A stretch of 37,668 bases of DNA, taken from positions 1 through 37,668 of the forward strand of contig CAJONO010000217.1 in assembly GCA_905235905.1 (NCBI GenBank). Direction: 5' to 3'. Source of the stretch: an uncultured Prevotella sp. Lineage in GTDB: Bacteria > Bacteroidota > Bacteroidia > Bacteroidales > Bacteroidaceae. Below the pieces are notes generated by a model. The model saw nothing but the letters and a program-made list of their open reading frames with translations. It did no database searches and had not been told where the DNA came from. Positions 822 through 23,025 of this stretch are shown here, piece by piece; within the stretch, counting starts at the first letter, position 1; every line of letters starts with the position of its first letter. Made by a program: the position numbers and the translations under genes.

Positions 822-1490
822 ATGAACCATTCGGAGATTTACAGTCAGGCACAGCTCATGGAGCTGATTGGGCAGATAGGCTTTCTGCCCCTGTTGGATA
901 GTGGCATTCGTGGCTATTCGGCCGAGGATATGGTGGCCGACGACTGTCGCTACGTGGTGATGCCCGACGGTGGCTGGGACTGGCCGCTATGGAAATGGAA
1001 AGGCCCCATCGTGACCGAGGGCAGCGTGGTCTACGGCAAGTTCTTCGCTGGCAAGGCCGGTTTCATCAGCCGCGAATGGTGGCCTGACTTCTGCAACTAT
1101 CGCCGTCATCAGCATCCGGAGCCTGAGGAGGGCAGTATCGAAGAGGCTATTCTGCTCACGCTGCAGGAACATGGCAGCCTGATAACCCGTGAGTTGCGGG
1201 CTGCCTGTGGCTTCACGGGGCCGAAGATGCGCAGCCGTTTCGACGGTTACGTTACGCGTTTGCAGATGGCTTGCCGCATTGTTACCGAGGACTTCGTCTA
1301 TCCGCAGGACAAGCATGGCCATGAATATGGGTGGGGATGGTCGCTGCTCACCACGCCCGAACAGCTGTTTGGTCGTGAGGCCTGCCATTGCGACCGCTCG
1401 CCCGAAGCGTCGTTCCGCCGCATTGCAGGCCATCTCTGTCGGCTATTGCCTGAAGCTTCCGAGCAGGCTGTCATCAGGATTATCAAGTGA
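822..1490 (+). CDS. AlkZ-related winged-helix protein
   Basis: Conserved protein of 222 residues resembling the short bacterial proteins annotated as AlkZ-related, a branch of the winged-helix family that includes the DNA glycosylase AlkZ/YcaQ. The N-terminal half (about 15-95) carries the pattern GFLPLLDSGIRGYS, a Trp-rich stretch (WDWPLWKWKGPI) and YGKFFAGKAGFISREWWPDF, which I recognise from those proteins. The middle (about 105-155) fits a helix-turn-helix that would sit on DNA. No signal peptide or membrane segment is present, so it should be cytoplasmic. It is shorter than true AlkZ (about 370-400 residues), and glycosylase activity should not be assumed. It starts 9 bases after the SGNH gene. 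Its stop codon falls inside the first, degenerate unit of the 22-bp palindrome array. Confidence 0.6.
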   Translation: MNHSEIYSQAQLMELIGQIGFLPLLDSGIRGYSAEDMVADDCRYVVMPDGGWDWPLWKWKGPIVTEGSVVYGKFFAGKAGFISREWWPDFCNYRRHQHPEPEEGSIEEAILLTLQEHGSLITRELRAACGFTGPKMRSRFDGYVTRLQMACRIVTEDFVYPQDKHGHEYGWGWSLLTTPEQLFGREACHCDRSPEASFRRIAGHLCRLLPEASEQAVIRIIK

Positions 1491-1613
1491 TCGTACCTGA
1501 ATTACCTCGCAATTCAGTATTCATTGGCCTGCAATTCATGCTGAACCATCGGCTAATTCATACCGAATTGTGAGGTAATTTGTAATATATTGACTTTCAG
1601 TTTGTTACGAAAT
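1489..1613. repeat. 22-bp-period palindrome array A (AATTC...GAATT type)
   Basis: Palindromic 15-mers begin at 1511, 1533 and 1555, exactly 22 bases apart: AATTCAGTATTCATT, AATTCATGCTGAACC and AATTCATACCGAATT. They are separated by 7-base spacers of unrelated sequence. In-phase degenerate units occur on both sides: 1489-1503 (ends GAATT), 1577-1591 (AATTTGTAATATATT) and 1599-1613 (AGTTTGTTACGAAAT). In addition GAATTACCTCGCAATTC (1499-1515) pairs with GAATTGTGAGGTAATT (1565-1580), so the whole block could fold as one long hairpin. It fills the gap between two converging genes. Function unknown. Confidence 0.75.
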
Positions 1614-15063: not shown

Positions 15064-16131
15064 ATGACTTTATATCCTAAGCTTATCATGGATGCCCTCG
15101 CTACGGTGATGTATGCGGGCACTAAGAAGAACCTGGTGGAGAGCGGTATGGTGGTCGACACACCAAGTATTAATGGCATGAAGGTGCGTGTGGTGCTTGA
15201 GTTTCCTCGCGACACCGACCCCTTCCTCAAGTCGACGGTCAAGGCTGCCGAAGCGGCCATTCACTACCAAGTGTCGAACGAGGTCGAGGTGGAGATTGTC
15301 ACTGAGTTCAAGTCGAAGGCTCGCCCCAAGGACGAGAAGCTGCTGCCTCAGGTAAAGAACATCATTGCCGTGAGTTCGGGCAAGGGTGGGGTGGGAAAGA
15401 GCACCGTCGCTGCCAATCTTGCCATTGCCTTAGCCCGGCTTGGCTATAAGGTGGGACTGCTTGATACCGACATCTTCGGCCCCTCGGTGCCCAAGATGTT
15501 TCATGTGGAGGATGCCAATCCTTATGCTGTCGAGATAGATGGCCGTAATTTGATAGAACCTATCGAGAAATATGGCGTGAAGCTCCTGTCCATCGGTTTC
15601 TTCGTCAGCCCTGACACGGCTACTCTTTGGCGCGGAGGAATGGCCACCAACGCCCTGAAGCAGCTGCTTGCCGATGCCAACTGGGGCGAACTCGACTATT
15701 TTATCCTCGACACTCCGCCGGGCACCAGCGATATTCACCTCACTCTTCTGCAGACGCTCACCATTACAGGCGCCGTCATCGTGTCGACTCCCCAGCAGGT
15801 AGCTTTGGCCGATGCCCGGAAGGGTATCGACATGTATCGTAACGAGAAGGTGAATGTGCCTATCCTTGGACTCATTGAGAACATGGCGTGGTTCACGCCT
15901 GCCGAATTGCCCGGTAACCGTTACTACATTTTCGGTCGCGAAGGCTGTAAGAAGCTGGCCGAGGAGATGCAGGTGCCCCTGCTGGCTCAGATTCCATTGG
16001 TGCAGAGCATTTGCGAGAGTGGCGACCAGGGTGAGCCGGCAGCTCTCAGCAGCGACACAGCAACCGGCCTTGCCTTCATTAATTTGGCGCAGTCGGTTGT
16101 CACGGTCGTTAACCGTCGCATCGCCAAATAG
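15064..16131 (+). CDS. Mrp/ApbC-type iron-sulfur cluster carrier ATPase
   Basis: P-loop ATPase of the Mrp/NBP35 family, which carries Fe-S clusters to target proteins in the cytoplasm; 355 residues. The first 85 or so residues are a MIP18/DUF59-type domain. The ATPase follows, with the deviant Walker A GKGGVGKS at 106-113 and the typical DTDIFGPSVPKMF, FFVSPDTATLWRGGMA and LDTPPGTSDIHL blocks. The C-terminal CxxC that bridges the cluster between subunits in most family members is missing: the segment after IENMAWF reads TPAELPGNRYYIFG. I believe this variant is common in Bacteroidetes. No isc or suf genes are nearby. The gene converges on the LytTR regulator across array B. Confidence 0.92.
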   Translation: MTLYPKLIMDALATVMYAGTKKNLVESGMVVDTPSINGMKVRVVLEFPRDTDPFLKSTVKAAEAAIHYQVSNEVEVEIVTEFKSKARPKDEKLLPQVKNIIAVSSGKGGVGKSTVAANLAIALARLGYKVGLLDTDIFGPSVPKMFHVEDANPYAVEIDGRNLIEPIEKYGVKLLSIGFFVSPDTATLWRGGMATNALKQLLADANWGELDYFILDTPPGTSDIHLTLLQTLTITGAVIVSTPQQVALADARKGIDMYRNEKVNVPILGLIENMAWFTPAELPGNRYYIFGREGCKKLAEEMQVPLLAQIPLVQSICESGDQGEPAALSSDTATGLAFINLAQSVVTVVNRRIAK

Positions 16132-16163: not shown

Positions 16164-16292
16164 CATTACAAAGTGCTTGTAACGTCATTACAAAGTGCTT
16201 GTAACGTTGTTACAGAGTACTTGTAACGCTATTACATAGTACTTGTAATGGCATTACAAAGGCTTTGTAATAAGACTGTGTGACTTTTGTAA
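16164..16292. repeat. 22-bp-period palindrome array B (TTACAA...TTGTAA type)
   Basis: Five palindromic 17-mers start at 16166, 16188, 16210, 16232 and 16254, exactly 22 bases apart. Units 1 and 2 are identical (TTACAAAGTGCTTGTAA), units 3 and 4 vary inside the core, and unit 5 is a perfect palindrome with 8-base arms (TTACAAAG, G, CTTTGTAA). Spacers are 5 bases. A sixth, half-decayed unit ends in phase at 16292 with TTGTAA. The array fills the gap between the stop codons of mrp and of the converging regulator gene (16296). Function unknown. Confidence 0.88.
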
Positions 16293-16295
16293 CGA

Positions 16296-17036
16296 TTACT
16301 TGCCTAAAAACTTGGTGTTTATATAGGCTTGGAACGCCTCCTTGTAGAGGTCGCCGATGGGAAGATAGGTGTTGGCATCCATAATGACGCGGTTCTTGTT
16401 TACCTCTTGAATCTTGGTGAGGTTGACGATGTATGAGCGGTGTATGCGCATGAAGTTGTCTGGCAGCCTCTCTTCTATTTTCTTCATTGAGAGCAGGGTG
16501 ATGATGGGCTTTGCCTCGCCCTCTATCCATACCTTCAGGTATTCGCTCATGGCCTCGACGTAGCGTATGTCGTGAATGCTCACCTTCACAATGCGGTAGT
16601 CGGTCTTCAGGAAGATGATGTCTGCCTCGCTCTCGCCTTTTTGTTCGGCAGGGGCCGCTGATGTCTGTTCAGGCGTGTTGGGGGCAAGGCGCTCTTTCAG
16701 CCGCTGTGCCGAGCGCTGGAACTCTTGGAGGCCGAAGGGCTTGAGCAGATAGTCGACGGCATTGACGCGGAAGCCCTCGACGGCATATTCCGAATAGGCG
16801 GTGGTGAAGACGACAAGTGGCGGCGTGGCCAGCGACTTCACAAAGTCCATGCCGTTCAGGTCGGGCATGTTAATGTCGCAAAAGATGGCATCTACCATGT
16901 CGTGTTCCAGAAACGACCGTGCTTCCAAGGCACTTTTGCACTTGGCAGCGAGTTCGAGGTAAGGCACCTTACTGATATAAGTGACGAGCTGTTGCAGTGC
17001 GAGCGGCTCGTCGTCGATGGCGAGACAACGAATCAT
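16296..17036 (-). CDS. LytTR-family response regulator
   Basis: DNA-binding response regulator of the LytR/AlgR type, 246 residues. The receiver domain (about 1-115) has the acidic pair Asp8/Asp9, the phosphoacceptor Asp54 (CDINMPDLNG), the Thr of FTTAYSEYAV and the conserved Lys of LLKPF. A short linker rich in Ala, Gln and Glu leads to a LytTR DNA-binding domain (about 140-245) with the typical VEAMSEYLKVW and MRIHRSYIVNL motifs. The start codon overlaps the stop of the kinase gene by four bases (ATGA), so the pair should be translationally coupled. Its targets are unknown; LytTR proteins generally bind paired direct repeats upstream of promoters. Confidence 0.95.
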   Translation of the reverse strand: MIRCLAIDDEPLALQQLVTYISKVPYLELAAKCKSALEARSFLEHDMVDAIFCDINMPDLNGMDFVKSLATPPLVVFTTAYSEYAVEGFRVNAVDYLLKPFGLQEFQRSAQRLKERLAPNTPEQTSAAPAEQKGESEADIIFLKTDYRIVKVSIHDIRYVEAMSEYLKVWIEGEAKPIITLLSMKKIEERLPDNFMRIHRSYIVNLTKIQEVNKNRVIMDANTYLPIGDLYKEAFQAYINTKFLGK

Positions 17037-22944: not shown

Positions 22945-23025
22945 AATTCGGTCTAAATTGTGTTTCAATTCATGTTGAATTGCACGATAATTTAAACTTG
23001 ATTGCATCGGAATTCAGCATGAATT
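22945..23025. repeat. 22-bp-period palindrome array C (AATTC...GAATT type)
   Basis: Four 15-mers start at 22945, 22967, 22989 and 23011, exactly 22 bases apart: AATTCGGTCTAAATT, AATTCATGTTGAATT, AATTTAAACTTGATT and AATTCAGCATGAATT. Spacers are 7 bases. The core and period are those of array A at 1489-1613, over 21 kb away. It ends about 60 bases before the Rpn promoter. Confidence 0.8.

Follow-up and report, generated by a model that had tools for sequence, protein, structure and literature searches.

Arrays of palindromes at a 22-bp period in Prevotella as candidate operator rows for the DUF6078 family

Described systems and the array in the window

Tandem dyad-symmetric sites placed about two helical turns apart and bound by a small dimeric helix-turn-helix (HTH) protein are known as the operators of Cro/C1-type regulators and C proteins, and as plasmid iterons. 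In matS/MatP, the SlmA and Noc sites, and parS/ParB, many copies of a single conserved dyad are read by one cognate protein. Here we describe an array of palindromes with TTACA/TGTAA arms (TTACA array) in a contig of an uncultured Prevotella sp. (CAJONO010000217.1, positions 1 to 37,668; the whole stretch of 37,668 nucleotides is hereafter the window). As in the second group of systems, the dyads are short and dispersed and have a dedicated protein, albeit a predicted one; in contrast to them, the dyads are arrayed in tandem, their arms are exchangeable, and one genome has several classes of array. The difference from Cro/C1-type operators, C protein operators and iterons lies in the dozens of chromosomal arrays, which are mostly outside promoters and change their arms between species. 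No replication initiator was found beside the window array, arrays of this type occur on 10 contigs of the genome, and one array checked elsewhere adjoins a VapE/primase-like gene. From the sequence comparisons below, we give about an even chance to the proposal that the arrays are operator rows for a protein that binds DNA as a dimer and is predicted to come from the DUF6078 family; it would act as a roadblock or insulator between transcription units.

The nearest published repeats found are the tagged REPs and PINSR, and both differ from the arrays, as far as the accessible parts of the two sources describe them. Tagged REPs are stem-loops of 20-40 bp that occur alone or in pairs and bear an unpaired tag, GTAG or CGTC (PMC3733652). 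Like the REPs and BIMEs covered in that part of the source, the present arrays are short multi-copy intergenic palindromes found between convergent or unidirectional genes and near gene 3' ends (PMC3733652). Unlike them, the arrays are tandem with an exact 22-bp period, and no selection on core pairing was seen in the arrays. A tag of the GTAG/CGTC type was absent, as the spacers vary over 456 units with no fixed tetranucleotide. PINSR is a 188-bp intergenic repeat of Prevotella intermedia/nigrescens with 177-184 copies and unknown function, about three quarters of the sites being common to two strains; it thus resembles the arrays as a multi-copy intergenic repeat of the Prevotella lineage with shared sites, but the accessible part of the paper describes no internal palindromic period (PMC4755523). 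According to the same part, PINSR was reported only in the intermedia/nigrescens clade and was absent from P. veroralis, which was among the species tested (PMC4755523), whereas we found TTACA arrays in P. veroralis. A paper on the annotation of P. gingivalis states that repeats as short as 3-31 bp were left unannotated (PMC5771137). Our literature searches, in which subscription journals were mostly uncovered, gave nothing fitting on tandem palindromes of 22 bp, whether in Prevotella or in Porphyromonas, and no paper on DUF6078 or HU-HIG.

In the window, five palindromes start at positions 16166, 16188, 16210, 16232 and 16254, at the exact 22-bp spacing that an earlier note on this sequence had described. 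Each is a 17-bp TTACA-N7-TGTAA unit with completely paired 5-bp arms and no assigned strand. Units 1 (16166..16182; TTACAAAGTGCTTGTAA) and 2 (16188..16204) have the same sequence, as the note had also seen, and are followed by units 3 (16210..16226; TTACAGAGTACTTGTAA), 4 (16232..16248; TTACATAGTACTTGTAA) and 5 (16254..16270; TTACAAAGGCTTTGTAA). The 6-bp arms TTACAA/TTGTAA, which the note gave to all units, are present in units 1, 2 and 5, while units 3 and 4 have the 5-bp TTACA/TGTAA only. Its further statement that the core varies with the arms kept paired is correct for the arms of all five units, but the core changes are not base-paired. The decayed sixth unit (16276..16292, no strand) could be confirmed: its left arm is lost and the right arm TTGTAA alone is kept in exact phase, and 6 of the 10 arm bases match in this register, whereas none of the 19 other registers within 16270-16289 matches at more than 4. 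The 5-bp spacer is roughly symmetric (YRNYR) and thereby creates a second dyad, TGTAA-N5-TTACA, so that dyads recur every 11 bp. The array is not a CRISPR, in agreement with the note, as its spacers are 5 bp long and partly conserved, whereas a CRISPR has repeats of about 20-50 bp and unique spacers alike in length. Tandem Repeats Finder reported one period-22 array in the window, and Rfam gave 0 matches there at the gathering score.

Period, spread and genomic position

We searched for three in-phase palindromes with free arms; because the stretches of F0043, most of those of P. histicola and 9 of the 20 from the window's own genome had been selected for TTACA arrays, the numbers are counts and not densities. 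The 400 kb of F0043 contained 25 arrays at 22 bp and 0 at any other period from 14 to 43. P. histicola (400 kb) had 34 at 22 bp, 4 at 21, 1 at 33 and 1 at 36, and its 17 rows at period 44 were mostly the doubled 22-bp period. The window genome (314 kb) yielded 21 at 22 bp, 9 at the harmonic 33 and 1 elsewhere. The counts at 22 bp and elsewhere were 3 and 4 in G016 (420 kb), 3 and 2 in six genomes of the genus (261 kb; one of the three is the known G003 array, which was deliberately fetched), and 1 and 5 in other families (262 kb), all from a single AT-rich contig. Besides TTACA, the arms found at 22 bp were AATTC-N5-GAATT in the window genome (termed class II), AAAAG-N5-CTTTT in P. histicola, TCACA and TTCCA in Bacteroides pullicola, and TTACC and GTTTC. 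Thus, arrays with differing arms have a common period and not a common sequence, which bears out the idea in the earlier note of a repeat class set by its 22-bp period rather than its core. The search suggested there, for 22-bp palindromes with a free core, detected in-phase units in other genomes and arms that vary in symmetric pairs (TCACA..TGTGA, TTACC..GGTAA and TTCCA..TGGAA), so that the outcome named there as a refutation was not observed.

The window genome (3.23 Mb, 231 contigs, 82% complete) has TTACA arrays at 10 places, and 34 matches to the two-unit pattern on 10 contigs against 0 for the reversed control. Across the genus, 34 of 398 genomes possess a TTACA array with at most one mismatch (reversed control in 1), and none was detected in 16 genomes representing other families of the order (one per family). 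A scan of named genomes gave at least 105 stretches, and the 80 listed were of Prevotella, Prevotellaceae and a few Bacteroides and Bacteroidaceae; viral contigs contributed 1 matching stretch. Twelve named carriers had 2 to 142 two-unit matches each at up to 2 mismatches, with 0 in the reversed control throughout. The coordinates for G042 (P. histicola, judging by its locus) and for G407, one of the genus genomes, are identical, which suggests that P. histicola falls within the genus of the window. In G046 (Candidatus Bacteroides pullicola), the arrays contain, besides TTACA units, two symmetric variants (TCACA..TGTGA and TTCCA..TGGAA) and an asymmetric one (TTTCA..TGTAA), which often occupy the array edge.

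The arrays are intergenic for the most part: 1 of 80 lay inside an open reading frame (ORF) called by a simple ORF caller, and in another set of 115 arrays, 15 overlapped a called ORF. By the orientation of the flanking genes, these 115 arrays comprised 48 tandem, 33 convergent and 10 divergent cases, with 24 at a locus edge. Of the intergenic regions of at least 120 bp, 70 were convergent, 174 tandem and 78 divergent, and arrays were present in 27, 31 and 10 of them, respectively (Fisher's test, convergent versus divergent, P=0.0005). In 27 of 42 tandem cases the array was closer to the end of the upstream gene than to the start of the downstream gene (P=0.045). The positions also persist between species. 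For 14 of the 30 arrays of KH2C16, the F0043 sample covers both flanks, and in every one of these cases it has an array in the same intergenic region; that sample was built around arrays, yet only 22 of the 113 intergenic regions in its 400 kb contain one.

The window array itself separates two converging genes, as the earlier note had reported. It begins 34 bp past the stop codon of a gene for an Mrp/NUBPL-type iron-sulfur P-loop ATPase (15064..16131, + strand; PF10609, E 5e-90), and its unit 5 lies 25 bp from the 3' end of a gene for a LytTR response regulator (16296..17036, - strand; PF04397 and PF00072). Among the matches listed in a search for this junction across 200 genomes, the two genes mostly did not match side by side, and no 22-bp array was present in the 29 flank loci retained from the search, so that no history of the window array was gained.

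The DUF6078 family as the predicted reader

The 310 proteins flanking 151 arrays were clustered over 46 genome labels, some of which may be one genome, and DUF6078 (PF19555) was found under 7 labels, the next best family being under 3. A profile search of the sampled DNA, from which 5 artefact matches were removed, retained 11 DUF6078 genes. All 11 are followed on the 3' side by a TTACA array, which in the closest case overlaps the stop codon and in the farthest lies about 260 bp off, against a rough chance expectation of 0.2 (two such genes among 2,800 assumed). As this DNA had mostly been fetched around TTACA arrays, the result speaks for closeness within 8-kb loci and not for presence. The coordinates agree in G214, G338 and G046. 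In the genus, DUF6078 was found in 239 of 398 genomes, namely in 28 of the 34 TTACA carriers and 211 of the 364 others (P=0.006).

Twenty more DUF6078 3' flanks were examined, 18 from genomes without TTACA matches and 2 from carriers. Arrays with other arms at 22 bp were present in 7 of the 20, of which 6 belong to the 18 and 1 to the pair from carriers; at any one other period, at most 3 of the 20 had an array. The arms behind these 7 genes were TTACC in three cases, and TTCCA, ATTCCC, ATTCC/GTTTC and GTTTC in the others. All 7 genes were among the 8 lower-scoring ones, and the 12 top-scoring genes (L346-L357) had no array; probably, then, only part of the family is linked to arrays. Six DUF6078 genes in carriers were chosen later, and 5 of them have arrays; right arms were partly decayed at L375 and L377, and the array of L377 was judged by eye. 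In three rumen genomes (L041, L057 and L071), the array has DUF6078 on one side and, on the other, a large gene that belongs to a single family; at L041, the sole case checked, this gene is VapE/primase-like with DUF3874. These large neighbour genes are perhaps part of a mobile element.

The bases of the units suggest how such a protein might read them. Over 122 arrays comprising 456 units, the consensus is approximately TTACA-MRYNRYK-TGTAA-YRNYR, with the conservation of the arms biased by the array search pattern and with looser positions 19 and 21 (p19 and p21). The spacer ends p18 and p22 combine as CA, CG, TG and TA 88, 88, 86 and 79 times, as expected under independence. In 14 orthologous array pairs, the changes were A<->C in 12 of 14 at p6, A<->G in 12 of 12 at p7, C<->T in 13 of 13 at p11, G<->T in 10 of 11 at p12, C<->T in 6 of 6 at p18 and A<->G in 6 of 6 at p22. 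A code of this type was absent at p9 (19/40) and p20 (10/26), where variation in the orthologous pairs is free, and p19 and p21 were mixed. A and C have a major-groove amino group in common, and A and G have the N7 acceptor in common. Taken with this chemistry, the A/C and A/G substitutions look like protein contacts with each half-site, and the variable positions look like a dyad-symmetric, protein-like code rather than base pairing. Adjacent units were more alike than shuffled ones in several genome sets, which fits growth through tandem duplication.

On the protein side, residue 103 of DUF6078 follows the arms of the neighbouring array. It is Arg in 9 of 9 pairs with non-TTACA arrays and in 1 of 14 pairs with TTACA arrays (P=1.2e-5), and the next best of the 142 alignment columns reached P=0.013. 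The structure models place this residue in a helix following a tight turn, and residues ~66-133 gave weak structural matches of the Cro/C1 type (4yba, 3zhm and 7xi5). Residue 103 is predicted to be in the recognition helix of a Cro/C1-type HTH. Pfam searches with 55 members (E up to 10) gave no HTH family except a weak winged-helix match (PF21213, E 0.088, 1 member); NCBIfam gave nothing for two members, and the PDB sequence search returned two chance-level matches only. PADLOC gave nothing for DUF6078 and matched only the neighbouring VapE/primase-like protein.

We propose that DUF6078 dimers would bind successive palindromes, two helical turns apart on one face of the DNA, with cooperativity between neighbouring units. 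The resulting protein row may coat the DNA behind genes and block, end or insulate transcription, above all between converging units, and the gene ends insulated in this way would include that of the DUF6078 gene itself. It is adjacency and co-variation that point to DUF6078 as the binding protein, and array position alone that points to a roadblock. The earlier note had pictured a phased protein-binding array, and the dyad-symmetric base code and the candidate family favour this indirectly. More tentatively, at somewhat less than an even chance, the arrays of Prevotella and its relatives, dozens in each genome, could be chromosome-wide barriers at gene ends, each set being read by its own DUF6078, with residue 103 of the predicted recognition helix and the arms changing together, so that the arms would be free to drift while the 22-bp architecture stays constant. 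The class would then, with the same reservation, be defined by its geometry and its paired reader and not by its sequence.

Several observations weigh against the proposal. L080 is an exception to the residue-103 rule, and in G056 a protein with Arg is paired with a TTACC array despite 27 TTACA matches in that genome. The DUF6078 genes L363 and L373 have no array. DUF6078 above the cut-off was not found in the window genome, at its 82% completeness, nor in G327 (99% complete, 22 array matches), G049, G129, G154, G180 and G187. The class II (AATTC) arrays may use a different protein, or there may be an unseen reader.

To our knowledge, how Bacteroidota stop convergent genes from reading into each other is poorly known. 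If the proposal is right, a major genus of the gut, rumen and mouth relies on DNA arrays coated by protein at the ends of many genes, DUF6078 obtains its first function, and the diverging protein and its array arms, which would diversify together, provide a natural series of co-diverged protein/operator pairs for studying the evolution of DNA-binding specificity.

Competing explanations and other arrays

The main rival holds that protein-bound arrays serve chromosome organisation, by nucleoid anchoring or by buffering supercoils at converging genes, and not insulation. We regard it as rather unlikely. Dozens of arrays are dispersed on the largest F0043 contig among the matches listed, the convergent regions in which supercoils collect are the enriched ones, and the two dyads per 22 bp, 11 bp apart, correspond to about one helical turn. 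Against these stand the differences of the arms among species and among classes of one genome, which are unlike the readout of gyrase or HU-type proteins, the tendency of the arrays toward gene 3' ends, and the array of DUF6078 behind its own gene.

The arrays could instead work as RNA, as the earlier note had offered as its alternative: stacked hairpins or bidirectional terminators would protect or end both converging transcripts. The placement behind genes is consistent with this, and the window array folds strongly compared with shuffles (z -6.9), although such a fold is expected of any row of palindromes. In F0043 and KH2C16, p5/p13 covaries (77 of 84 distinct units paired against 68.3 expected) via units such as TTACC..GGTAA. 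The core pairs behave otherwise, with 30 of the 84 units paired at p6/p12 against 31.5 expected and 37 at p7/p11 against 42.9, and none of p6/p12, p7/p11 and p8/p10 paired above shuffles in the other five genome sets. When genomes were pooled, p8/p10 (0.460 against 0.277 shuffled) and, slightly, p7/p11 exceeded shuffles, as did the arm pairs p2/p16 and p5/p13; we read the core excess as differences between genomes. The absence of core covariation within genomes argues against RNA hairpins. In addition, the transcribed strand showed no preference for G-U over A-C (93 to 80, P=0.36), and in none of six genome sets did whole-array mirror pairing exceed that of shuffled units (P<0.05).

Terminator-like sites, namely a GC-rich stem followed by a T run, numbered 0 in the window between 16050 and 16400, and arrays had no excess of them in F0043 (6/29 versus 16/85) or G000 (2/18 versus 6/45). 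P. histicola is the exception, with 22 of 38 array-side 3' ends terminator-like versus 23 of 99 others, and its class II units end in TTTT. An RNA function would furthermore leave one exact period over unrelated arms without a reason. We rejected the hairpin and terminator reading on the tests of core covariation, strand bias and mirror pairing and on the terminator scan of the window, and consider it improbable.

Similarly improbable is the possibility that DUF6078 and its array are a selfish or mobile couple comparable to RAYT and REP, in which DUF6078 would spread or maintain arrays that have no host function. The gene does adjoin its repeat, as REPs flank RAYT genes; DUF6078 is multi-copy in several genomes; and the three arrays between DUF6078 and a large gene, VapE/primase-like in the one case checked, would suit a mobile element. 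On the other hand, Pfam gives DUF6078 no transposase domain, and the arrays keep their positions in two species although their units diverge, in doing which they follow a strict code; this suggests selection on the site. Mobilisation of the arrays by RAYT itself, as for REPs, was rejected: Y1_Tnp, the RAYT domain, had no match in the array-rich G041, G042, G044, G045 and G046, though it was found in 11 of the 17 genomes searched, including the window genome (4 matches), and this distribution indicates that it can co-occur with arrays but is not required.

An ordinary local operator, for instance for the LytTR regulator whose gene ends 25 bp away, is very improbable for the window array and largely refuted by dispersal, the array type being present at 10 places in the window genome and in 34 of 398 genomes, mostly outside promoter positions.

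Two class II arrays of AATTC-N5-GAATT 15-mers at 22 bp, with no assigned strand, are present elsewhere in the window, and are most likely the arrays A and C of the earlier note. The first (1489..1613) has no more than 2 arm mismatches in 3 of its 6 registers and begins where an AlkZ-related gene has its stop codon. For the second (22945..23025), which lies between divergent genes, the same limit holds in 3 of its 4 registers. A third type of 22-bp array was seen in the window genome at L306:13935 (GTTTGGGCATACGCGAACGGTC). P. histicola has an array type of palindromes at a 21-bp period (ATTATCACGCTTAGATAAT) at L188:19799, L189:1290, L194:17544 and L200:14544. The same species possesses, over L187-L206, many AAAAG-GGCRY-CTTTT arrays at 22 bp, in which the orientation flips inside arrays and the TTTT ends resemble bidirectional terminators.
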